A stretch of 41,957 nucleotides of DNA from Desulfobacteraceae bacterium (lineage in GTDB: Bacteria; Desulfobacterota; Syntrophobacteria; Syntrophobacterales; Syntrophobacteraceae): the NCBI GenBank assembly GCA_021372055.1, contig JAJFVB010000091.1, positions 1-41,957 of the forward strand, read 5' to 3'. A program made the translations under genes and the position numbers. The notes beneath the pieces were generated by a model that had not been told where the DNA came from, did no database searches, and saw only the letters and a program-made list of their open reading frames with translations. Positions 7,892 to 20,790 of the stretch are shown piece after piece. Positions within the stretch are counted from its first letter, which is position 1, and every line of letters starts with the position of its first letter.

Positions 7892-9235
7892 ATGGCGGAT
7901 AACTCCCTCAATATTCTGGTAGTGGACGACGAGATTAACATCCGAAGAACGTTGACCATGTGCCTGGAAACAGGTGGGCACAGTGTGGTAGCGGTGAGCA
8001 ATTTCGAAGATGCGGTTACGGAAGCATCGAGGAAATCCTTTCAACTGGCTTTTGTAGACCTGCGATTGGGCACAGCCGACGGATTGGACCTGATCCCGGC
8101 CCTTCTGGCCACCACTCCATGGCTCAAAGTCGTTGTCATTACGGCATATGCTTCGATCCAATCAGCCGTTGAAGCCATGAGGCGCGGCGCCACGGATTAT
8201 CTCCCGAAGCCGTTTACACCTGCCCAGGTGGAGCTTGCAACCCGCAAGGTCATGGAAGTGCGCACACTTGAGCAGAGGGTTGCCGCTCTCCAGGAAGACA
8301 TGGGAAGATTCCATCCCGAGGCAGACTTCTCAAGTACGAGTCATGCCATGCAGCGGGCGGTGACCTTGGCGCGCCAGGTGGCGCCCACAAACGCCACAAT
8401 ACTCCTTCGTGGAGAGAGTGGGACCGGCAAAACTCTATTTGCCCGCGCCATTCATTCCTGGAGCGGGCGGACCAAAAGGCCGATCGCTATTGTCTCCTGT
8501 CCGTCGCTTTCCGCCGAACTTCTTGAAAGCGAACTATTCGGCCATGTCAAAGGCGCCTTCACGGGCGCGGTCCGGGACAATCCCGGCCGTATCGCCGCAT
8601 GCGAGGGGGGGACCCTTTTCCTGGATGAAATCGGCGACCTTCCGTTATCGCTGCAGCCAAAGCTTCTGCGGTTCCTGCAGGATAAGGAATACGAGCGCAT
8701 AGGCGATCAGACGACTCGAAGGGCTGATGTCAGGGTGATAACAGCCACCAATTCCGATCTGGAAAAAGCGGTAAAGGAGGGCCGGTTCCGCGAAGACTTA
8801 TTCTATCGTTTGAATGTTTTCCAGGTCGTGCTTCCTCCGCTAAGAGAGCGTATCGAGGATGTCGTGCTCCTGGCTGAGCGGTTTCTTGCTTTCTTCGGAC
8901 GCCAGCGGCACAGGGCGTTCCTTGGGTTTACCGAGGATGCGCTGGAAGCGCTGAATCGTTATACATGGCCGGGAAACGTCCGGGAGTTGCACAATGTCGT
9001 TGAAAGGGCCGCCATCCTCTGCAACAGCGAGCGGGTCGGCATCGAGTATTTGCCCGAAAACCTCTCGATCCCTGCAGCCGAACTCAATATAGGCGATCCG
9101 GTAAGCCTTGAGGCGGTGGAGGAGTTGCACATTCGCCGCGTGCTTGCGCTTTCCAAATCGCTGCAGGAAGCAGCCGATACGCTTGGCATCGACCAGGCAA
9201 CTCTTTGGAGGCGCCGCAAGAAATACGGGATCTGA
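7892..9235 (+). CDS. NtrC/AlgB-family sigma-54-dependent response regulator
   Basis: Phosphorylation-controlled enhancer-binding protein that opens sigma-54 promoters. Domains of the 447-residue product: receiver (1-120) with acidic pair Asp12/Asp13, phospho-acceptor Asp56, Thr84 and Lys106; AAA+ domain (about 145-375) with Walker A GESGTGKT (174-181), the sigma-54 contact loop GAFTGA (221-226), Walker B LFLDEIG and the WPGNVREL sensor motif; and a Fis-type helix-turn-helix in the last 35 residues (QEAADTLGIDQATLWRRRKKYG). All activator motifs are intact. The gene is followed by three copies of a 15-bp palindrome and a sigma-54 promoter before a KinB-like kinase and kdp genes, so these are its likely targets (inference). 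The arrangement resembles AlgB-KinB with gene order regulator then kinase. Confidence 0.95.
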   Translation: MADNSLNILVVDDEINIRRTLTMCLETGGHSVVAVSNFEDAVTEASRKSFQLAFVDLRLGTADGLDLIPALLATTPWLKVVVITAYASIQSAVEAMRRGATDYLPKPFTPAQVELATRKVMEVRTLEQRVAALQEDMGRFHPEADFSSTSHAMQRAVTLARQVAPTNATILLRGESGTGKTLFARAIHSWSGRTKRPIAIVSCPSLSAELLESELFGHVKGAFTGAVRDNPGRIAACEGGTLFLDEIGDLPLSLQPKLLRFLQDKEYERIGDQTTRRADVRVITATNSDLEKAVKEGRFREDLFYRLNVFQVVLPPLRERIEDVVLLAERFLAFFGRQRHRAFLGFTEDALEALNRYTWPGNVRELHNVVERAAILCNSERVGIEYLPENLSIPAAELNIGDPVSLEAVEELHIRRVLALSKSLQEAADTLGIDQATLWRRRKKYGI

Positions 9236-9276
9236 CATCTCCCCGCGTTCGCCCGCTTGGCACCTCGATGAAGAAT

Positions 9277-9291
9277 ATTGCAGAATGCAAT
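9277..9291 (+). promoter_or_regulatory. Palindromic activator site 1
   Basis: ATTGCAGAATGCAAT: perfect 6-bp arms (ATTGCA/TGCAAT) around GAA. First of three copies between the activator and kinase genes, about 280 bases upstream of the predicted transcription start. It is likely bound by the sigma-54 activator encoded just upstream. Confidence 0.7.
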
Positions 9292-9308
9292 AATGTGGCC
9301 CGCGTCGC

Positions 9309-9323
9309 ATTGCATTCTGCAAT
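9309..9323 (-). promoter_or_regulatory. Palindromic activator site 2
   Basis: ATTGCATTCTGCAAT on the plus strand is the exact reverse complement of site 1, so it is the same site inverted. Its centre is 32 bases from that of site 1, close to three helical turns, which would place two dimers on the same face of the DNA. Confidence 0.7.
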
Positions 9324-9426
9324 CCGGCCCGTCCGCTGGACGTAAGGCTAGATTCCGCCTCAGGAAAGCATTCAGCTTCAACACCCTTTCAGACCTCGCT
9401 CCTCGGAAACCTGCGGTCCGAAATAT

Positions 9427-9441
9427 ATTGCAGAATGCAAA
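9427..9441 (+). promoter_or_regulatory. Palindromic activator site 3
   Basis: ATTGCAGAATGCAAA matches site 1 at 14 of 15 bases, and both are preceded by an AT-rich AATAT or ATAT stretch. It lies about 100 bases upstream of the -24 element, a usual enhancer distance for sigma-54 promoters. Confidence 0.68.
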
Positions 9442-9537
9442 GCTCCCACGCCTCAATACTTGCGCGAGTCCATCCATTTGGCATGTCATAGGCTGCAAAA
9501 TCCAAGTAAATCGGCATACTATCGTCAATATCCCACG

Positions 9538-9552
9538 TGGCACGGCGATTGC
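9538..9552 (+). promoter_or_regulatory. Sigma-54 (-24/-12) promoter
   Basis: TGGCAC (9538-9543), five bases, TTGC (9549-9552). This matches the -24/-12 consensus, with the invariant GG and GC separated by exactly ten bases. It lies 31 bases before the ATG of the KinB-like kinase and downstream of three palindromic activator sites. It should drive the kinase and, by read-through, the kdp genes that overlap its 3' end. Confidence 0.82.
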
Positions 9553-9583
9553 CATAGTCCAGTGAACAAGGAAGGAGAGAACA

Positions 9584-11425
9584 ATGCTGGGTATTCGAGA
9601 GAAGCTGACTTTCGGGTTCGGTGGACTGCTTCTGATCATGGTCGTCATCGGGATAAACAGCATCTCGCTTCTCACCACGCTGGGGTATTCCGTAGACGTG
9701 ATCCTTACGGAAAATTACCGGAGCGTCATTGCATGCGAGCGGATAAAGGAAGCCCTTGAGCGTATGGATAGCGCTGCGCTGTTTACCCTTTTGGGTGAAA
9801 CCGACCAGGGGCGGGAGCTGATCGCCAGGAATGAGCCCGTTTTCGAGGCGGCGCTGCAGACCGAACTCAGTAACATCACCCTTCCCGGCGAGCTTCAGAA
9901 GGCTGAGCATCTCAGGGCCCTTTTCACGCAATACAGAGTTGCCCTCCAGAAGGTTGTGGACGCGACACTGTCTCCCGATACCCGGCGCGAGGCCTATTTT
10001 GTCACAACTCTTCCATTATTTTACAAAATGGGAGCTACCGCCGAAGAGATTCTGCACATGAACCAGCAGAACATGCTCGATGCAAACGCGCGCGCCAGGA
10101 ACACGGCAAGCGCGGCAAAACGGCGAATGTACATCCTCCTTCTGAGCGGCGGTTTCCTGGCCGTGCTTTTTTTCCTTTTTACCGGGAGATGGATTCTTCG
10201 TCCGATCAACCGGTTGATCCGATCGGTCGACGAAATAGGGCGCGGGAATCTGGACCTCGTCGTTCCTGCCGAATCGAAAGACGAAATCGGCCGTTTGTCC
10301 GCGGCGTTCAACGAGATGGCCTCAAGCCTTCGTCAATTCCGCAGGAGCTCTCAGACCAAGATGGCCCTGATCCAGCGCTCGACCCGGCAGGTATTCAAGA
10401 GCCTGCCCGATGCGGTTGTCATAGTGGATCTGAACGGCCAGGTGGAAGTATCGACTCAGACCGCTTTCGAGTGTTTTGGTCTCAAGCCTGGCGTCAGCAT
10501 CCGGAATTTACCCGATCGAATAGTCCGGCTGTTCGATGAGGCGCTGATCAGCAAGCGTCCTGTCGAGCCGTTGGGAAGGCACGCAATCATCCAGCAGTTC
10601 ATCAAGGGAGAAGAGCATTTCTTTCGGCCGGGGGTCTTCCCGATCCTTGATGGAGAGAAAGATCCGACAGGGGTCACCCTCGTGCTGAAGGACGTGACGC
10701 AACAACTGCACCATGATGAGCTCAAAGGAGGGGTCATCTCGACGGTCTCCCATCAACTGAAAACCCCCCTTACGTCTCTTCGGATGGCGGTTTACCTGCT
10801 CCTTGAGGAGAAGGTGGGGCCTCTTACACCCAAGCAGACCGAACTCCTGATAGCCGCCAGAGACGAAAGCGACCGGCTGCACTCCATCCTGAATAATCTG
10901 CTCGATATCAGCCGCATCGAATCGGGGAAAATGCAGATGGACTTTCTGCCTGTGTCCCCTCGCGCAATCGTAATGGAGCAGCTGGATGCATTCCAGAGCG
11001 CGGCAAAAGATCGCGGCGTCACCCTCAGGATGGATGTGCCGAACGAGCTCCCCGAGGTTCTTGCAGACCCGTTGCGCATCGGGCACGTGCTCTCAAATCT
11101 GCTTTCCAATGCCCTTAAGTACACCGCGCCCGGAGGAGAGGTCTGCGTCTCCGCGAAATCCGACGGCGAGGAGGTTGCCTTTGCGGTCTCCGACACCGGG
11201 AAAGGCATCGGCCCCGAGTACCTGGACCGGATATTCGAGCAGTTCTTCCGGATCCCCGGACAGCCTTTCGAGGCCGGTGAAGGCCTGGGGCTCGCCATCG
11301 CAAAAGACATAATAGAGGTCCACGGCGGAAGTATCGGCGCGGAGAGTGAAGAAGGAAAAGGGAGCACGTTCACTTTTACGCTCGGAAAGGCCGGGGATGC
11401 GAACAGGAAGGCCGGATCGAAATGA
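9584..11425 (+). CDS. KinB-like membrane sensor histidine kinase (HAMP-PAS-HisKA-HATPase)
   Basis: Inner-membrane sensor kinase of 613 residues and the presumed partner of the upstream activator. TM1 lies at about 11-31. A helical periplasmic region (32-182) follows, then TM2 (about 183-203), HAMP (about 203-256, with LRPINRLIRSVDEIGRG), PAS (about 265-372), HisKA with His390 in the H-box VSHQLKTPLTS, and HATPase with SNLLSNALKYT, SDTGKGIG and GEGLGLAIAK. All catalytic boxes are present. It starts at ATG 9584 after AAGGAGAG. The stop TGA (11423-11425) overlaps the ATG of the next small gene, which ties it to the kdp operon. It is not KdpD: it lacks the KdpD N-domain, the USP domain and the four-helix DUF4118 region. 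Whether it senses K+, turgor or envelope state cannot be told. Confidence 0.9.
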   Translation: MLGIREKLTFGFGGLLLIMVVIGINSISLLTTLGYSVDVILTENYRSVIACERIKEALERMDSAALFTLLGETDQGRELIARNEPVFEAALQTELSNITLPGELQKAEHLRALFTQYRVALQKVVDATLSPDTRREAYFVTTLPLFYKMGATAEEILHMNQQNMLDANARARNTASAAKRRMYILLLSGGFLAVLFFLFTGRWILRPINRLIRSVDEIGRGNLDLVVPAESKDEIGRLSAAFNEMASSLRQFRRSSQTKMALIQRSTRQVFKSLPDAVVIVDLNGQVEVSTQTAFECFGLKPGVSIRNLPDRIVRLFDEALISKRPVEPLGRHAIIQQFIKGEEHFFRPGVFPILDGEKDPTGVTLVLKDVTQQLHHDELKGGVISTVSHQLKTPLTSLRMAVYLLLEEKVGPLTPKQTELLIAARDESDRLHSILNNLLDISRIESGKMQMDFLPVSPRAIVMEQLDAFQSAAKDRGVTLRMDVPNELPEVLADPLRIGHVLSNLLSNALKYTAPGGEVCVSAKSDGEEVAFAVSDTGKGIGPEYLDRIFEQFFRIPGQPFEAGEGLGLAIAKDIIEVHGGSIGAESEEGKGSTFTFTLGKAGDANRKAGSK

Positions 11426-11505
11426 TGGACTTTGCATATATCGCCGCAACGCTCGTTTTCTTTGCCCTTTGCGTTCTTATTATAAGGGCTTTTGAGAGGC
11501 TGTAG
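11422..11505 (+). CDS. 27-residue membrane micropeptide upstream of kdpF
   Basis: Short hydrophobic peptide: MMDFAYIAATLV, then FFALCVLIIRAFERL. It forms one membrane helix (about residues 4-21) with an Arg-rich end. The ATG overlaps the stop of the preceding kinase (ATGA), and an AGGAAGG lies about a dozen bases upstream. It is distinct from KdpF, which follows three bases later, because it lacks the RPEKF ending. Its location and one-helix design suggest a Kdp accessory peptide. I recall similar MD-x-YI-x-ERL peptides next to kdpF in other bacteria, but I cannot run a search here. No biochemical role is claimed. Confidence 0.65.
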   Translation: MMDFAYIAATLVFFALCVLIIRAFERL

Positions 11506-11507
11506 AT

Positions 11508-11591
11508 ATGACGGAAACAATAGTGGGTCTAATCGGAATTGCCCTGATCGTTTACCTTCTCGCAACGGTTATCAGGCCCGAGAAGTTCTAG
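11508..11591 (+). CDS. kdpF: KdpF, small subunit of the K+-transporting ATPase
   Basis: 27-residue, single-helix protein with the sequence MTETIVGLIGIALIVYLL followed by ATVIRPEKF. The RPEKF ending is characteristic of KdpF, which stabilises the KdpABC complex in the inner membrane. GAGAGG lies upstream of the ATG. It sits between the micropeptide and kdpA, as expected for kdpFABC. Confidence 0.88.
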   Translation: MTETIVGLIGIALIVYLLATVIRPEKF

Positions 11592-11623: not shown

Positions 11624-13357
11624 ATGGATATCTTCGGATGGATTCAACTGGCGCTGTTTGTAGCCGTGCTTTTCGGGCTCACAAAGCCTGTGGGAATATA
11701 CCTGGCGCGCGTGCTGGACGCTAAAGGCGCTACCTTTCTCGACCCGGCAATACGGCCTGTCGAACGCCTTATTTACCGCATTTCGGGAATCGACCCCGAC
11801 AGGGAGCAAAGCTGGCGGCAGTATGCGGTTTCGATCATAGCTTTCAGCCTGGTCGGACTGCTTTTCACCTACGCGGTGCTTCGGCTTCAGAACCTCCTGC
11901 CGCTGAACCCGCAGGGATTCGGCCCGGTGAGGCCGGATCTCGCCTTCAACACGGCTGCAAGCTTTACTACCAATACCAACTGGCAAAGCTACGGCGGAGA
12001 ATCTACTCTTTCCTATTTTTCCCAGATGGTAGGCCTTGTTTTCCACAATTTCGTTTCCGCGGCCATGGGAATCGCGGTGGCCGTGGCCCTCATTCGCGGG
12101 ATTGCGGGCCATTCTGCGAAAAGCATCGGGAATTTCTGGGTGGACCTCGTGCGGATCAACCTGTTCCTCCTGTTGCCCATCTGTGTTTTCTACTCTGTTT
12201 TCCTGGTCTCACAGGGCGTTGTCCAGAACTTTCAGCCCTATGTCACGGCTGAGGTCGTGGAACGTTTGGAAGGGACGGCAGACTCCTCACAGACGATTGC
12301 GCAGGGGCCTGTGGCTTCACAGGCTGCAATCAAGATGCTCGGAACAAACGGCGGTGGGTACATGAATGCAAACGCCGCACATCCTTACGAAAACCCGACG
12401 CCCCTTTCCAATTTCATCCAGATGCTCTCGATATTTCTCCTCCCGAGCGGCCTCACCTATACCCTTGGGCGGATGGTAAAGAACCAGCGGCACGGATGGG
12501 CGGTCTGGCTCGTCATGACCCTGCTCGTCCTGGCCGGAACTTTTGCCGCATGGTCGTCGGAGGCCGCAGGCAACCCCAGGATGCAGACGCTGGGAGTGAG
12601 CGCGGCGGATGGGAATATGGAGGGGAAGGAAGTACGTTTCGGTATCTTTGGCTCTGCTCTTTTTGCGACGATTACGACAGATGCCTCGTGCGGCGCGGTA
12701 AACGCGATGCACGACTCTTTTACCCCTCTGGGCGGCCTTGTACCGCTCCTGAACATGCAACTCGGAGAGGTGATCTTCGGCGGGGCAGGGGCGGGCCTCT
12801 ACGGGATGCTGGTTTTTGTGGTCCTGACCGTTTTTCTGGCCGGACTCATGATCGGGCGCACTCCGGAGTATCTCGGCAAAAAGATTGAGGCTTACGACGT
12901 GAAAGCAAGCGCAATCGCCGTGCTGATTCCGATCCTGTTCACCCTCGGGTTTGCGGCTCTGGCGGCGGTGAGCGCCTGGGGAGTCGCCGGGCTGAACAAT
13001 GCCGGGCCGCATGGGTTGAGCGAAATGCTCTATGCCTACTCTTCGGCCGCGGGAAATAACGGAAGTGCTTTTGCCGGCCTCAATGCAAACACTCCCTGGT
13101 ACAACACAACGCTCGGCATTGCGATGCTGGCGGGCAGATTCCTCATCATCGTGCCTGTCCTGGCCCTTGCGGGAGATTTGGCCCGCAAGAAGCGTGTCGA
13201 AACAAGCGGGGGGAGCTTCCCGGTCGGGGGTGGGACCTTTGTCGTTCTCCTGACGGGAACGATCCTCATTGTAGGGGCACTCACGTTTCTGCCGGCACTC
13301 TCTCTCGGGCCTGTTGTCGAGCACTTCACCCTGTATGGGTCCGTGAGACTGTTCTGA
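11624..13357 (+). CDS. kdpA: KdpA, K+-binding and translocating subunit
   Basis: Channel-like subunit of the high-affinity KdpFABC potassium pump. From ATG 11624 it has 577 residues (E. coli KdpA: 557). I chose this ATG because MDIFGWIQLALFVAVLFGLTK gives the normal KdpA N-terminus; the frame is open further upstream but runs through kdpF. The four selectivity-filter loops are recognisable: SFTTNTNWQSYGGE, MLGTNGGGYMNANAAHP, TTDASCGAVNAMHDSF and SSAAGNNGSAFAGL. About ten membrane helices are expected. A GGGAGG lies about 12 bases before the start, which is slightly long. Confidence 0.95.
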   Translation: MDIFGWIQLALFVAVLFGLTKPVGIYLARVLDAKGATFLDPAIRPVERLIYRISGIDPDREQSWRQYAVSIIAFSLVGLLFTYAVLRLQNLLPLNPQGFGPVRPDLAFNTAASFTTNTNWQSYGGESTLSYFSQMVGLVFHNFVSAAMGIAVAVALIRGIAGHSAKSIGNFWVDLVRINLFLLLPICVFYSVFLVSQGVVQNFQPYVTAEVVERLEGTADSSQTIAQGPVASQAAIKMLGTNGGGYMNANAAHPYENPTPLSNFIQMLSIFLLPSGLTYTLGRMVKNQRHGWAVWLVMTLLVLAGTFAAWSSEAAGNPRMQTLGVSAADGNMEGKEVRFGIFGSALFATITTDASCGAVNAMHDSFTPLGGLVPLLNMQLGEVIFGGAGAGLYGMLVFVVLTVFLAGLMIGRTPEYLGKKIEAYDVKASAIAVLIPILFTLGFAALAAVSAWGVAGLNNAGPHGLSEMLYAYSSAAGNNGSAFAGLNANTPWYNTTLGIAMLAGRFLIIVPVLALAGDLARKKRVETSGGSFPVGGGTFVVLLTGTILIVGALTFLPALSLGPVVEHFTLYGSVRLF

Positions 13358-13411: not shown

Positions 13412-15433
13412 ATGGTTGCAAAAAAGCACTCTCTTTTCGATCCTGGGATGATCGCGCAGGCCGTGATCGAGGCCCTGAAAAAACTCGATCCTCGCTCGAT
13501 GGTGAAGAACCCTGTCATGTTCGTCACCGAAGTGGGGGCGGTGGTCACCACTTTCGGCTTGGTCTTCAGGCAGGGCGCGGAACCCGTCCTGTTCAGCCTT
13601 CAAGTAACGCTCTGGCTCTGGTTTACCGTGCTTTTCGCCAACTTTGCGGAGGCGCTGGCGGAGGGGCGCGGCAAGGCCCAGGCAAATGAACTCCGGAAAA
13701 CCCGAACGAAAACCCTTGCAAACCGCCTCCTCGCCGACGGTTCGTTTGAAAAGACATCTGCGGACGAACTGCGTAAAGGGCATCTGGTCCTTGTTTCGGC
13801 AGGCGAGATCATCCCGGCGGATGGTGAAATTGTGTATGGGGTGGCCACGGTGGATGAATCTGCCATAACGGGAGAATCGGCTCCCGTTATTCGTGAAGCG
13901 GGCGGGGACAGAAGCGCGGTGACGGGCGGGACGAGAGTCTTGTCGGATTCGATCAGGGTCCGCGTCACAGCCAATCCGGGCGAGAGCTTTCTCGATCACA
14001 TGATCAGGCTGATAGAGGGAGCAAAACGTCAGAAGACCCCCAACGAGATTGCGCTGACGATTCTTCTATCCGCGCTGACGATCATCTTTCTCGTCGCCAT
14101 AATGACGTTCAAATTCTTCGGCATCTACTCGCACGTGACGTTTTCGGTCACGGTTCTCGTGGCGCTGCTGGTCTGCCTCATTCCCACAACGATCGGAGGA
14201 TTGCTCAGCGCAATCGGGATTGCGGGAATCGACCGGCTGGTTCAGAAAAACGTGCTCGCCATGAGCGGCCGTGCCGTGGAAGCGGCCGGAGACGTGGATG
14301 TGCTCCTTCTCGACAAAACCGGCACCATCACTCTCGGAGATCGGCAGGCAACGGAATTCCTGCCCGCAGCGGGAGTGTGCGTCGAGGATCTCGCCGATGC
14401 CGCGCAATTGGCCTCCCTCGCCGACGAAACGCCGGAGGGCAGGAGCATCGTCGTGCTGGCAAAGCAGTACGGACTGCGCGGCAGATCCATAATGGACATG
14501 CCAAACGCCAGATTCCTCCCTTTTACTGCGCAGACCCGCATGAGCGGAGTCGATGTCGGCGAGACCCAGATCCGCAAGGGGGCACCCGATGCGGTGAGGG
14601 ATTTCATCGCGAGCCCGTTTCCGCAGGAAGTCGAAGCATCGGCGAGGCGGGTTTCACAAAACGGCGGGACCCCCCTGATCGTTGCCAGCGGCAGGCGGGT
14701 CCTTGGCGTGATTCACCTCAAGGACATCGTCAAAGGGGGGCTGAAGGACCGCTTCGAACGCTTTCGCGCGATGGGTATAAAGACTGTCATGATAACCGGC
14801 GATAACAGGCTGACGGCAGCAGCCATTGCAAAAGAAGCCGGTGTTGACGATTTCCTTGCCGAGGCGCGCCCGGAGGACAAGCTCTCGCTTATAAGAAACG
14901 AGCAGGCTGCCGGGCACCTCGTCGCCATGACGGGCGACGGAACCAACGATGCTCCGGCCCTTGCGCAAGCCGATGTGGGCGTTGCCATGAACACCGGTAC
15001 GCAGGCGGCCAAGGAAGCCGGAAACATGGTGGATCTCGATTCAAACCCCACCAAGCTCATCGAAGTGGTCGAGATCGGCAAGCAGATGCTCATGACCCGT
15101 GGGGCCCTTACGACGTTCAGCATCGCCAATGATGTCGCCAAGTACTTCGCCATCATCCCCGCAATGCTCGTAAGCGCGTTTCCCGTTATCGGGCCCTTGA
15201 ACCTGATGCGGCTGGGGTCACCGGCCAGTGCGATCCTCAGTGCGGTTATATTCAATGCGCTGATCATCATTGCCCTCATTCCGCTTGCCCTTCGCGGCGT
15301 GCGCTTCCGTCCCCTGGGGGCGGCGGTGCTTCTTCGCCGGAATCTTTTGATATACGGGGCTGGCGGTCTGGCTGTGCCTTTTGTCGGGATAAAGCTCATA
15401 GACCTCCTGGTCAATGGACTGGGTCTCGTTTAG
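13412..15433 (+). CDS. kdpB: KdpB, P-type ATPase subunit
   Basis: Catalytic ATP-hydrolysing subunit of KdpFABC, 673 residues (E. coli: 682). The phosphorylated Asp301 is in DKTGTIT. The dephosphorylation loop TGES is at 153-156; its Ser156 corresponds to the serine whose phosphorylation inhibits E. coli KdpB (Ser162), so that control could exist here. [11 protein letters not shown] forms the hinge motif. [20 protein letters not shown] is the M4 core. The gene follows kdpA by 54 bases and precedes kdpC by 5, as in other kdp operons. Confidence 0.97.
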
Positions 15434-15438
15434 GAGGA

Positions 15439-16059
15439 ATGACTGTGAAAAAGGGCAAGGACAAAGACCAATCGATGATCATGGACCTGATTGCGGAGCT
15501 TCGCACCTCTTTGGTTGCCACGCTGCTGCTGGCGGTTTTGCTCTGCGGCGTCTACCCCGTGGTGGTGTGGGGTGTGGCGCGGGGTATTTTTTTGCATAAG
15601 GCAAACGGCTCTCTGCTCTACCACGACGGCAGGATTGTGGGGTCGTCGCTGATCGGCCAAGAATTCAAAGGTCCGGGCTACTTTCACCCCCGTCCATCGG
15701 CAGCCGGCGAGGGCTATGATGCCGCCGCCTCAGGTGGGAGCAACCTCGGCCCGACTTCGCAAAAGCTGATCGATGCCGTTGCGGAGCGCATCAGTGGCTA
15801 TCGCACCGAAAACGGCCTGGCGGAAAATGTTCCGGTCCCGGCCGACGCCGTCACGGCCTCGGGAAGCGGTCTCGATCCGCACATAAGCATTGCGAATGCC
15901 GCCCTTCAGGCCCGGCGCGTCGCTTCGGTCCGTGGTTTGAGCGAAGCCGCGGTTCATAAGAAAATCGAAGCGCGCACCGAAGGCCGTGACATGGGGATTT
16001 TCGGAGAGCCGCGAGTAAACGTACTGCTGCTCAACCTCGATCTGGACGGAAAGCTTTGA
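15439..16059 (+). CDS. kdpC: KdpC, K+-ATPase assembly and affinity subunit
   Basis: Single-pass inner-membrane subunit of KdpFABC, 206 residues. One N-terminal helix (about 27-50, LVATLLLAVLLCGVYPVVVW) precedes a periplasmic domain with the conserved stretches GSSLIGQEF, YFHPRPSA, ASGGSNLGPTS, GSGLDPHIS and VNVLLLNLDL. An AGGAGGA lies just before the ATG. The stop is nine bases before the ATG of the KdpD-like gene, so translation is likely coupled. Confidence 0.95.
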   Translation: MTVKKGKDKDQSMIMDLIAELRTSLVATLLLAVLLCGVYPVVVWGVARGIFLHKANGSLLYHDGRIVGSSLIGQEFKGPGYFHPRPSAAGEGYDAAASGGSNLGPTSQKLIDAVAERISGYRTENGLAENVPVPADAVTASGSGLDPHISIANAALQARRVASVRGLSEAAVHKKIEARTEGRDMGIFGEPRVNVLLLNLDLDGKL

Positions 16060-16067
16060 GGCCGATC

Positions 16068-17756
16068 ATGTCCGAGAACCGGGCCGACAGCTTCCTTAGA
16101 ATGATTCGCCGCTCTCAGCGCGGAAGGCTAAAGATTTATCTCGGCTACGTCGCGGGGGTGGGGAAGACCTGGCAGATGCTCGAAGAGGCGCACAGGATCA
16201 GGCAGGAAGGCATCGATGTGGTGGTCGGGTTCGTGGAAACGCATGGCCGCGCCGAAACGGCCGCGCTTATCGACGGCCTGGAGGTAATCCCGCGAAGGCG
16301 GCTCGAATATCGCGGGATAATGATCGAGGAGATGGACCTGGATGCCGTTCTGGCAAGAAAGCCCCATGTGGTGCTCGTTGACGAACTGGCTCACACGAAT
16401 GTCCCCGGAAGCAGGCATGCTAAGCGCTACGAAGATGTTCAGGACCTCCTCTCCGCCGGAATCCACGTCATCAGCACGCTCAACGTCCAACACCTGGAGA
16501 GCCTCTACGACATGGTCGAGAAAATCGCCGGGATCAAAGTTCGGGAGCGCATTCCCGATACCGTTGTGGCCGATGCCGATGAGATCGTGAACGTGGATCT
16601 CACAACCGAAGATCTGACCAAGCGTCTTCAGGAAGGAAAGGTCTACCCAAGCGACCGGGTTGGAGTCGCCTTGGCCAATTTCTTCAAGAAAACGAACCTG
16701 GCACAGTTGCGCGAACTCACGCTGCGGGAAGTGGCCTCGCAGATAGACCTGAGAAGCCGCGACGTTTCGGAGACCGAGATCACGGCCACTCCCGATCAGG
16801 TCATGGTTTGCCTGAGCTCCCGCGGCCCGAACAGCGAGATGCTTCTTCGCTACGCCTCGCGCCTTGCGGGAAGGCTCAATCGCAACTGGTACGCCGTATA
16901 CGTGCAGACTCCCTCGGAGGAGCCCACGGTAATAGACTCCCAGACCCAGCGCATTCTTTCCGGCACCCTGACCCTGGCAAAGCAGCTCGGCGCCGTGGTC
17001 TTCACCTACAAAGGAGAGGATGTCGCGGAGACGATCCTGCGCTTTGCAAAGGAATACCGGGTGGGGCATCTCGTGATCGGAAGCCCGGGCCCTCTGACTT
17101 TCTGGAAAAAGCTCCTCCAAAAAAAGAACGTTGTCGAGCGGTTGATCCAAAATGCGGGAGGTGTCACGGTCGTTGTTCTCGATACTCGTAAGTCCTGCAA
17201 GTTTCCGGCGGAGAAGTCGGAACAGTTTGCCATGGGATCCGATCTTGCTGCCGCGCCTTCGGATCGGTTGCTCTTGAGTAGCGTCCTTTCCCCGGAACGA
17301 ATCGTTATATGGAACGAGTCCATCGATAAAGAAGATGCCCTTCGCGCTCTCGTGGAAACAGCCGCGAGGGATTGCGGCATGAACGATGCCGCCTCCGTCC
17401 TGGAGCAGGTGCTCGACAGCGAGGACCAGGGATCGACTTTCCTGAACGAAGGGGCGGCATTTCCTCATGTCCGGATCAAGGGGCTCACTGTCCCTTGTAT
17501 GGCTCTCGGCCTCGCCCACAGGGGACTGGCGGACGTAATCTCGGACAACCCGATCGAGTGCGTTTTTCTTATCCTCTCGCCTGCCGAAAAGCCTGAAGTG
17601 CAGCTGCAGATTCTTTCGGTTGCGAGCCGTGCGGCCCAGAGCCGTTACCTCTCGTCCAACCTCGGCGAAGCCGCGACTTCCGAAGAGGCGTTTGAGCACA
17701 TCCTCGACTGGGAAGCCACAGAGGAACCCCTCTCAGCGCGTAAACAGAGCCGCTGA
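16068..17756 (+). CDS. Kinase-less KdpD fused to a PTS EIIA domain (KdpD-USP-EIIA)
   Basis: Soluble 562-residue protein in the kdpD position of the operon. Residues 19-228 are the KdpD N-terminal domain, with Walker A GYVAGVGKT (Lys33), VLVDELAHTN (Asp105/Glu106) and the STLNVQHLESL motif. Residues 243-372 are the USP-like domain. The four-helix membrane region, HisKA and HATPase of normal KdpD are absent. Instead residues 402-548 form a type-2 PTS EIIA domain (EIIA-Fru/Ntr fold), with GSTFLNEGAAFPHVRI holding the phospho-acceptor His467. In E. coli, EIIA-Ntr binds KdpD and modulates it, so the fusion has a plausible logic. I chose ATG 16068, preceded by GAGG; a TTG at 16056 overlaps the kdpC stop. 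A sequencing artefact is unlikely because the frame is continuous across the join. Confidence 0.9.
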   Translation: MSENRADSFLRMIRRSQRGRLKIYLGYVAGVGKTWQMLEEAHRIRQEGIDVVVGFVETHGRAETAALIDGLEVIPRRRLEYRGIMIEEMDLDAVLARKPHVVLVDELAHTNVPGSRHAKRYEDVQDLLSAGIHVISTLNVQHLESLYDMVEKIAGIKVRERIPDTVVADADEIVNVDLTTEDLTKRLQEGKVYPSDRVGVALANFFKKTNLAQLRELTLREVASQIDLRSRDVSETEITATPDQVMVCLSSRGPNSEMLLRYASRLAGRLNRNWYAVYVQTPSEEPTVIDSQTQRILSGTLTLAKQLGAVVFTYKGEDVAETILRFAKEYRVGHLVIGSPGPLTFWKKLLQKKNVVERLIQNAGGVTVVVLDTRKSCKFPAEKSEQFAMGSDLAAAPSDRLLLSSVLSPERIVIWNESIDKEDALRALVETAARDCGMNDAASVLEQVLDSEDQGSTFLNEGAAFPHVRIKGLTVPCMALGLAHRGLADVISDNPIECVFLILSPAEKPEVQLQILSVASRAAQSRYLSSNLGEAATSEEAFEHILDWEATEEPLSARKQSR

Positions 17757-17792
17757 AGTCGATCTTCTGCGGACTAGGGAGATTTGCTCAGA

Positions 17793-18722
17793 ATGAAAAA
17801 GCCGAATCAGAATAGAGACAGAGCCTATCTTCTCTCCGGGCTCATCATGGTGCTTGCTCTCGGGCTTGCTGCGTGGGCCATAATGTCGAAACACGAGAAT
17901 GGAAGCTGGCTCCAAACCGCCTTCGAGCACAAGATGAAGAAGGCCGGATTGCTCAACACAATCAGAAGCAACATTCTCATGTCCGTCGAAGAGGAAAAAA
18001 GCTCGGTCATGGCCGATACGGACGAAGCGTCTACGGCTTTTGCCGAACAATCGGCACGGTCCTCGGCCACGGTAGAGCAAGCCCGGCGTGATCTTTTGCC
18101 GCTCATCGAAGAGACTAAAGCCAGCGCGGAGCTGGAGTCGTTTCAAAACTTCAGCGCTTGCTGGGAACGACTCCAACAGCTGGACCGGGAGATTCTTTCC
18201 CTCGCGGTTCAAAACACCAATCTGAAAGCGCTGAGGCTTTCATTCGCTCCGGCCGGTGCGGCTCTGGAGAAAATGGAATCGGCCCTGAACCGGTTGATGG
18301 AGGCCGATGCCTCATCGCCGAATTCCCTGGAGATAACAAGGAAGTCATCGATGGCTCTGATAAATGCCCTGAAAATACGCACGCTCCAGGCCCCGCATAT
18401 CGCCGAGACCTCCGACCTCGAAATGGACAGGATCGAAGCAGTGATGAAGCGCTATGACGGGCTGGTCAATGGGGCGTTTGACGCTCTCCACGGTTTGGTG
18501 GGCGATTCGGACAGACCCTTTCTCGATGCGGCGGCGGCATCCTATGAGGACTTCCGGAAAATTAACGCTCAGGTGATCGCACTATCGCGCCAGAACAGCA
18601 ATGTCCGGTCCTTTGCGATATCCCTGGGCCAAAAGAGAAAACTGACAGCTCAGTGCCTTGATTCATTGACGGTTCTTGAGAAGGTCGTTCAGGAAAGCAT
18701 GGAGTTCAAGGCGACCAGATAA
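17793..18722 (+). CDS. Membrane-anchored helical-bundle protein, MCP-sensor-like, without output domain
   Basis: 309 residues. A short basic N-terminus and one membrane helix (about 12-30) precede an almost wholly helical, Ala/Leu/Glu-rich body that should lie in the periplasm. It resembles the four-helix-bundle ligand domain of chemoreceptors and sensor kinases, but no HAMP, methyl-accepting or kinase domain follows. Two internal stretches match each other: LQQLDREILSLAVQNTNLKA and INAQVIALSRQNSNVRSF, each followed by an LS or SLG turn, which suggests duplication. The start is uncertain: ATG 17793 is preferred, and TTG 17784 is closer to the AGGGAG. Lying between the KdpD-EIIA gene and kup, it may sense an external cue for K+ uptake (inference). 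Confidence 0.7.
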   Translation: MKKPNQNRDRAYLLSGLIMVLALGLAAWAIMSKHENGSWLQTAFEHKMKKAGLLNTIRSNILMSVEEEKSSVMADTDEASTAFAEQSARSSATVEQARRDLLPLIEETKASAELESFQNFSACWERLQQLDREILSLAVQNTNLKALRLSFAPAGAALEKMESALNRLMEADASSPNSLEITRKSSMALINALKIRTLQAPHIAETSDLEMDRIEAVMKRYDGLVNGAFDALHGLVGDSDRPFLDAAAASYEDFRKINAQVIALSRQNSNVRSFAISLGQKRKLTAQCLDSLTVLEKVVQESMEFKATR

Positions 18723-18813: not shown

Positions 18814-20790
18814 ATGTCATCTTTATCTTCAGCACCTACGGAAGGACATTCCGTCAGCGAAGAGTCAAATCCCGCGGGCTCGCGTGGTGAGGCCGGTGTT
18901 TCGGACAGCACTGAGGCTCGCTCCAGGATTCCGAAAACCCTGGCTCTCACCTTGGGGGCGCTTGGCGTGGTTTACGGCGACGTGGGCACAAGCCCCCTGT
19001 ACGCCGTCAAGGAGTGCTTCCACGGAATGCACGCGATCGCGGTAAGCCATCAGAACGTCATGGGGGTGCTTTCCCTTGTGTTCTGGTCTCTCACGATGGT
19101 TGTGACCGTCAAGTACGTGGGATTTATACTACGCGCCGATAATAAAGGCGAGGGAGGCATCTATGCTCTTCTCGCACTCATCCCGATGGACAGGAAAACA
19201 CTTGCGCACGGCTTCAATACGGGGATCGTCCTGGCCGGAATCTTCGGAGCGGCACTTCTTTACGGGGATGGAGTGATCACCCCGGCCATATCCGTGCTTT
19301 CCGCGATAGAAGGGTTGGAGGTCGCCACCAAAGCGGCTGCATCCGCGGTCATCCCTTTGACCTGCATCGTCCTTTTCCTGCTGTTTACCGCGCAGCGGTT
19401 CGGCACCGCGGGGATTGGCAGATTCTTCGGGCCGATCCTGCTGGCCTGGTTTGTCGTGATCGGCGCACTGGGCGCAAACGAGCTTATCCGCAGCCCTCAG
19501 ATCCTCATGGCCGTTAACCCGGCATATGCAGTCGATTTCTTTGCTCTCAATAAAATGCATGGCATGATCGTGCTGGGTTCCGTGGTCCTTTGCATCACGG
19601 GAGGCGAAGCACTTTACGCCGATCTGGGACATTTCGGCAGCAAAGCCATCAGGATCTCCTGGCTTGCGATAGCCTTCCCGGCCCTCCTCTTGAATTATTT
19701 CGGGCAGGGGGCGCTCATCCTCGAAAATCCCGAACTGGCTTCCAACCCGTTCTATGGCCTGGTGCCCCGCGCCATCCTCTACCCGATGGTCGCGCTTGCC
19801 ACGATGGCCGCAGTGATAGCTTCTCAGGCAATGATCTCGGGGGTTTTCTCGCTCACTCAGCAGGCTGTTCAGCTGGGATTTCTTCCCCGTGTGCAAATCG
19901 TTCATACTTCGGGGGAAACGCGGGGGCAGATTTATGTCCCTCAGGTGAACTGGACGCTTATGCTGGCGTGCATAGGCCTCGTGTTGGTCTTCGGGAACTC
20001 GAGCAGACTGGCCGCGGCCTACGGTATTGCCGTAACGGCAACCATGGGGATCACTTCCATTCTCTATTTCTTTCTTCTAATCAGGGGGTGGAAATGGCCG
20101 CTTTGGAAGGCAGTGCCCCTTGTAGCTCTCTTTCTCGCGTTCGACCTGGCATTTTTTGGAGCGAACCTTCTGAAGGTCCTGGATGGTGGCTGGTTTACAA
20201 TTGCAATAGCGATCTGCATTACCATAGTCATGATCACCTGGCGGGATGGCCGGGCGGCACTTGCGCGGAGGATGCTCCAGACCCGGATGATGATCGAGCC
20301 GTTCGTAAAGGACGTAGCCGAACGTCTTCCCCATCGCGTTCCCGGAACGGCGGTCTTCCTGACGGTATCGGCAGAGGTCACCCCGCTGGCCCTCCTCCAC
20401 TTCTACAAGCATGCTCATGTGCTCCATGAACAGGTGATTCTGCTTTCCATCAAATCGGTGGATGAGCCGGTTGTTCCTGCCGCGGAGAGGCTGCGTATCG
20501 ATGAGTTCGGGTGCGGCTTCTATCGTCTCATAGCTTCCTATGGATTTATGGAGAGGCCGAATGTCCCGGTAGTCCTGCAACTTGCCTCGGAGAAAGGTCT
20601 GAGGACGCAACCGGCCTCGACAACCTATTTTCTCGGCAGGGAGACCCTGCTTACCAGCGGGCCGTCCGAAATGATGCACTGGAGAAAAAATCTCTTTGCC
20701 GCCATGTCTCGAAATGCTCAAAGCGCGATGGGCTATTTCAATATTCCCGTCGACCGTGTGGTGGAACTCGGCATCCAGGTTGCCCTATGA
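18814..20790 (+). CDS. kup: Kup-family low-affinity potassium transporter
   Basis: Inner-membrane K+/H+ symporter of 658 residues with about twelve membrane helices and a soluble C-terminal domain. The N-terminal signature GVVYGDVGTSPLYAVKECF is diagnostic, followed by ADNKGEGGIYALLALIP, GAALLYGDGVITPAISVLSA and GGEALYADLGHFG. It carries an extra Ser/Glu-rich cytosolic N-terminus of about 37 residues before the conserved core; ATG 18814 is the only start seen there. It lies 91 bases after the helical-bundle protein. Together with kdpFABC this gives the locus a high-affinity inducible pump and a bulk K+ uptake route. Confidence 0.95.
   Translation: MSSLSSAPTEGHSVSEESNPAGSRGEAGVSDSTEARSRIPKTLALTLGALGVVYGDVGTSPLYAVKECFHGMHAIAVSHQNVMGVLSLVFWSLTMVVTVKYVGFILRADNKGEGGIYALLALIPMDRKTLAHGFNTGIVLAGIFGAALLYGDGVITPAISVLSAIEGLEVATKAAASAVIPLTCIVLFLLFTAQRFGTAGIGRFFGPILLAWFVVIGALGANELIRSPQILMAVNPAYAVDFFALNKMHGMIVLGSVVLCITGGEALYADLGHFGSKAIRISWLAIAFPALLLNYFGQGALILENPELASNPFYGLVPRAILYPMVALATMAAVIASQAMISGVFSLTQQAVQLGFLPRVQIVHTSGETRGQIYVPQVNWTLMLACIGLVLVFGNSSRLAAAYGIAVTATMGITSILYFFLLIRGWKWPLWKAVPLVALFLAFDLAFFGANLLKVLDGGWFTIAIAICITIVMITWRDGRAALARRMLQTRMMIEPFVKDVAERLPHRVPGTAVFLTVSAEVTPLALLHFYKHAHVLHEQVILLSIKSVDEPVVPAAERLRIDEFGCGFYRLIASYGFMERPNVPVVLQLASEKGLRTQPASTTYFLGRETLLTSGPSEMMHWRKNLFAAMSRNAQSAMGYFNIPVDRVVELGIQVAL

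Follow-up and report, generated by a model that had tools for sequence, protein, structure and literature searches.

An NtrC-type response regulator of a Desulfobacteraceae bacterium (GCA_021372055.1) very probably binds palindromes of the form TTGCA-N3-TGCAA and drives, via sigma-54, a histidine kinase gene and kdpFABC. The original prediction had proposed this chain of activator, site, sigma-54 promoter, and kinase/kdp target. Our sequence comparisons supported it, in that the position of the sites, their spacing, and the promoter were conserved, loci with KdpDE lacked the palindrome, and the half-site changed with the recognition helix of the activator. The window, i.e., the whole stretch of DNA analyzed, comprised positions 1–41,957 of contig JAJFVB010000091.1 (forward strand).

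Gene organization and palindromes of the kdp locus

The features of the locus are listed in Table 1. The activator has the composition of an NtrC-class response regulator, with a receiver (PF00072), a sigma-54-interacting AAA+ domain (PF00158), and a Fis-type helix-turn-helix (HTH; PF02954) detected by Pfam. Its translation contains GAFTGA, an Asp residue at position 56 (within VDLRLG), and the recognition helix DQATLWRRR. The histidine kinase is a membrane protein, and the genes from the kinase to the kinase-less KdpD-type sensor (KdpD-N) are tightly packed. The EIIA(Ntr)-like domain of the latter retains the conserved His residue (AFPHVR), and the full fusion of a KdpD sensor with EIIA was also found in G002 (L036) and was absent from the other kdp loci that we read. 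Genes for a 4-helix-bundle protein (17784–18722) and a Kup-type potassium transporter (18814–20790) follow the kdp operon. The activator clustered with activators from other families and not with the majority of those from its own genus (L042–L050), suggesting exchange of the kdp cassette between lineages.

Table 1. Features of the kdp locus in the window
Feature	Position	Strand	Basis or remark
Activator (enhancer-binding protein)	7892–9235	+	Pfam and NCBIfam; translation; orthologs of 53–77% identity
Palindrome copy 1, ATTGCAGAATGCAAT	9277–9291	+	First member of the extra upstream pair
Palindrome copy 2, inverted	9309–9323	-	32 bp from copy 1; spacing kept in relatives
Palindrome copy 3	9427–9441	+	One mismatch in the 15-mer, 13-bp core intact; 105 bp upstream of the -24 GG
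Probable partner of copy 3, TTGCGCGAGTCCA	9460–9472	+	Decayed, four mismatches; 32 bp downstream of copy 3; proposed from the spacing
Sigma-54 -24/-12 promoter, TGGCACGGCGATTGCC	9538–9553	+	Predicted start near 9564
Sensor histidine kinase, first gene of the operon	9584–11425	+	4-helix-bundle-like sensor region, HAMP, HisKA, and HATPase (Pfam, NCBIfam)
Small membrane ORF, MMDFAYIAATLVFFALCVLIIRAFERL	11422–11505	+	Between kinase and kdpF; read from the sequence
kdpF	11508–11591	+	Translation MTETIVGLIGIALIVYLLATVIRPEKF; position
kdpA	11624–13357	+	Pfam, NCBIfam
kdpB	13412–15433	+	Pfam, NCBIfam
kdpC	15439–16059	+	Pfam, NCBIfam
Kinase-less protein with KdpD-type potassium-sensor and Usp domains and a fused PTS EIIA(Ntr)-like domain	16056–17756	+	Pfam, NCBIfam, translation

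Three copies of the palindrome, one inverted and one with a single mismatch, were found at exactly the positions that had been claimed, and all sites fall between the stop of the activator gene (9235) and the start of the kinase gene (9584). The three copies share an exact 13-bp core, TTGCAnnnTGCAA. A scan of the 4.66-Mb genome, proposed with the original prediction as a check, yielded five exact cores, three of them within these 165 bp, versus two for the reversed control pattern. Palindrome matches with up to three mismatches numbered seven, versus 0.9 expected. A pair spaced like copies 1 and 2 was unique genome-wide even with up to three mismatches, although the reversed control pattern also gave one such pair. 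The palindrome at C79:24320, which has no partner and is neighbored by phage- or plasmid-like genes, was taken as a chance occurrence, as were lone palindromes elsewhere in relatives (e.g., in G017, within the rpoB and flagellar regions).

The locus also matches the sequence pattern of a sigma-54 promoter, TGGCAC-N5-TTGC, with a ten-base spacing between GG and GC, and the genome encodes rpoN. The box TGGCACGGCGATTGCC was the sole strong sigma-54 box in the window, where 2.2 would be expected by chance, so that taken alone it does not exceed chance.

Conservation of the sites and the promoter across the phylum

We read activator orthologs in relatives and across the phylum and tested 42 regions, namely 40 downstream of activator orthologs and two kdp promoters located apart from the activator (L041b and L090), using dinucleotide shuffles as controls. 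The degenerate consensus was widened to K/M only after the relatives had been seen, and the regions are kin by descent, so the following counts describe conservation and not independent trials: 38 exact TTKCANNNTGMAA sites (shuffle mean 0.18, maximum 2); the palindrome with up to one mismatch in 41 of the 42 regions (shuffles 3.3), with L112 as the region where it was not found at that threshold; and, among pairs with up to two mismatches in total at all spacings of 14–59 bp, a spacing of 32 bp in 24 regions, 31 bp in eight, and any other in at most two. The prediction that copies 1 and 2 lie 32 bases apart on the same helix face was thus borne out by an exact and conserved spacing, which corresponds to three helical turns.

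The sigma-54 box gains weight from the same comparison, because it was present with up to one mismatch in 41 of the 42 related regions versus 1.1 in shuffles; the TGGCAC-N5-TTGC box predicted downstream of the copies is present and kept. A housekeeping promoter might instead drive kdp, with the palindromes tuning only the kinase or the activator gene, and a single sigma-70-like match was indeed detected upstream of the kinase gene, at 9257–9286 (9/12; 0.4 expected). However, this match is weak and overlaps copy 1, and the tight packing of the genes from kinase to KdpD-N, together with the retention of the sigma-54 box, makes such an arrangement highly improbable.

The relatives also refined the roles of the copies. 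In most of them, the first member of the pair lay 92–122 bp upstream of the GG of the box (mostly 101–105 or 111–114 bp) and the second 60–91 bp upstream. Copies 1 and 2 lie 255 and 223 bp upstream, farther than in nearly all relatives; a similarly far pair (317 and 285 bp) was seen at the kdp operon of L041. The mismatch that had been ascribed to the third copy is real, but by its placement copy 3 is the putative site at the position conserved in relatives, and copies 1 and 2 are a predicted extra intact set approximately 150 bp further out.

This upstream pair could also be read as RNA, since copy 2 is the exact reverse complement of copy 1 and the two would form a stable stem (-38.4 kcal/mol, z -2.4), either as a hairpin ending the activator transcript or as a leader structure, and not as a protein site. 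However, the hairpin has no T-run and hence is no intrinsic terminator, and Rfam gave no match. The central triplets of the paired sites in relatives were complementary at 29 of 108 positions, which is the chance level; the pairing is accounted for by the palindrome arms alone, and copy 3 has no intact partner of this kind. The missing T-run and the lack of complementary change led us to reject the hairpin or terminator as barely conceivable, and the palindromes are treated below as sites for a protein.

The distribution of the palindrome among kdp loci followed the type of regulator. Reading of 60 kdp loci from the phylum sample showed 27 with an adjacent NtrC-type activator, 27 with a classical KdpD including its kinase (mostly with KdpE), and six that were cut off or mixed. 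In none of the 20 classical KdpDE loci tested did the 500 bp preceding kdpA contain the palindrome. At L132 (G414), a KdpD/KdpE pair stands in place of the activator and neither palindrome nor box is present; from its sequence, we regard this locus as a putative natural rewiring. At L041, the activator gene is located apart from kdp, and its downstream region and the kdp operon each have a palindrome whose partner lies at a distance of 32 bp. Where kdp was absent, trkH was found near the activator gene (L056, L058, L076, and L078), and in L058 a gene for a receiver-TPR protein, trkA, and trkH come after the activator–kinase pair. These arrangements suggest that a single activator family goes with Kdp as well as with Trk. 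Distant loci with the composition kdp-KdpDN-HK-EBP contained weaker TTKCA-like pairs 22–24 bp apart.

Recognition helices and probable assignment of the sites to the activator

The recognition helix read DQATLW in most activators and DSVTLW in twelve, and the change from QA to SV was accompanied by a change of the half-site from TTGCA to TTTCA. The third letter of the half-site and its mirror were G/C in 51/56 for QA helices and in 3/28 for SV helices, although the SV rows form, with L051, one clade (support 100/99), so that the QA/SV split represents essentially one event. Two further but weak points were provided by L051 (helix DLVTLW), which has mixed half-sites, and by L140 (helix TTVTLW), which has TTACA-N3-TGTAA twice, 31 bp apart. 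The DNA–protein recognition code thus appears to have switched within the activator family. Together with the KdpDE loci, L132, L041, and the trk loci, the parallel change of helix and half-site argues that the sites belong to this activator and not to kdp or to another protein.

A competitor for the sites is a sister enhancer-binding protein of a Lon/Usp stress locus (DVU3305 type), which might be the chief binder of the palindromes, with kdp as a shared target. Elsewhere in the genome, conserved palindromes were detected only at G000:C129, in the promoter that separates a receiver-containing Lon protease from a Usp-TauE pair; a second site with one mismatch is located 87 bp off, and a pair at 87–88 bp likewise occurs in G002 and G024. 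In relatives, the Lon/Usp promoter has a near-identical palindrome, and a stress-type activator adjoins the locus, an arrangement resembling DVU3303–3305 of D. vulgaris. PMC3333781 reports kdp among the targets of DVU3305 in D. vulgaris, with putative sites that overlap those of DVU3334. The sister activator might therefore also bind the kdp sites here. However, the site stays with the gene for the kdp/trk activator even when the kdp genes are located elsewhere, and the stress-locus sites tend toward GTTGCA-N3-TGCAAC with a spacing of 87–88 rather than 32 bp. The stress activator also differs in its recognition helix (DRVSLWRK) and belongs to a separate clade. In G003, the kdp sites are of the TTTCA type and the Lon promoter still carries TTGCA-type palindromes, as expected if each had its own protein, indicating that the two systems have separated there. 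We consider a primary role of the sister protein at kdp quite improbable and retain the adjacent NtrC-type activator as the protein to which the sites belong. Conversely, the kdp activator might have the Lon/Usp promoter as a second target, but this idea was weakened by the dedicated activator beside that locus in relatives. At the Lon/Usp locus itself (L074:12906–17059, in G000:C129), the Lon-type protease has an inserted receiver domain and is divergent from Usp-TauE, with a possible sigma-54 box, TGGCACATCTCTTGAC.

Proposed mechanism and relationship to known potassium regulators

In the mechanism that we propose, the kinase, or another input, would phosphorylate Asp56 of the activator, whose dimers would bind the 13-bp TTGCA-N3-TGCAA sites through the Fis-type helix. 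Two dimers placed three turns apart on one face of the DNA may seed the active AAA+ ring, which would loop to RNA polymerase–sigma-54 at the -24/-12 box and open the promoter. The resulting transcript would comprise the kinase, the small membrane ORF, kdpF, kdpA, kdpB, kdpC, and the kinase-less KdpD sensor. Because the kinase gene is the first of the operon, activation would probably raise the amount of its own kinase and constitute positive feedback; the signal is presumed to be potassium, and the KdpD-N/EIIA protein may adjust it. In E. coli, EIIA(Ntr) contacts KdpD by a protein–protein interaction, and the fusion of a KdpD sensor with EIIA would make one molecule of this known contact.

E. 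coli KdpE is an OmpR-type regulator that works with sigma-70. The present locus resembles the E. coli KdpD/KdpE system in the predicted two-component control of kdpFABC and in the KdpD-type potassium sensor and Usp domains. It differs in its NtrC-type regulator and in a KdpD homologue without the kinase part; with only sensor, Usp, and EIIA in that homologue and an NtrC-type regulator adjacent, the locus falls outside the OmpR-type KdpDE class.

Judged by predicted wiring and gene content, the locus is instead of the DVU3334 type, in which a GAFTGA-containing sigma-54 response regulator controls kdpFABC and the sensor/Usp part of KdpD is split from the kinase. In D. vulgaris Hildenborough, DVU3334 was mapped to the kdp operon to which it itself belongs (Rajeev 2011, PMC3333781), and a later study assigned it, as a sigma-54 regulator, to potassium uptake (Kazakov 2015, PMC4641369). 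Sigma-54 control of kdp is therefore not new: the original prediction was correct in regarding it as a wiring different from that of E. coli, but the same control had already been mapped for DVU3334. In PMC3333781, orthologs of DVU3334 whose motif is conserved are reported from two organisms only, D. vulgaris Miyazaki and Syntrophobacter fumaroxidans, and neither kdp nor potassium is mentioned in a survey of sigma-54 regulons published in 2025 (PMC12316311). DVU3334 sits within the kdp operon that it controls, whereas the regulator described here precedes the operon, with the sites and the promoter between regulator and kinase. What the comparison adds to the known wiring is its breadth, the fixed 32-bp pairing, the activator–sites–kinase–kdp layout, the association with Trk, and the putative switch of helix and half-site.

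A wider reading, which we put forward tentatively and as somewhat short of an even chance, is that the activator family may be a phylum-wide regulator of potassium uptake through Kdp and Trk, whose binding word would have changed from TTGCA on two or more occasions (to TTTCA and to TTACA) together with residues of the helix, and which in this genome and G002 might have a direct link to the nitrogen-type PTS via the KdpD-sensor/EIIA fusion. The kdp loci read in the phylum suggest that NtrC-type sigma-54 control of kdp is approximately as common there as KdpDE, and that the signature of this activator family is a pair of sites separated by three turns. The joint change of helix and half-site lends itself directly to testing how DNA is selected by Fis-type HTH proteins.
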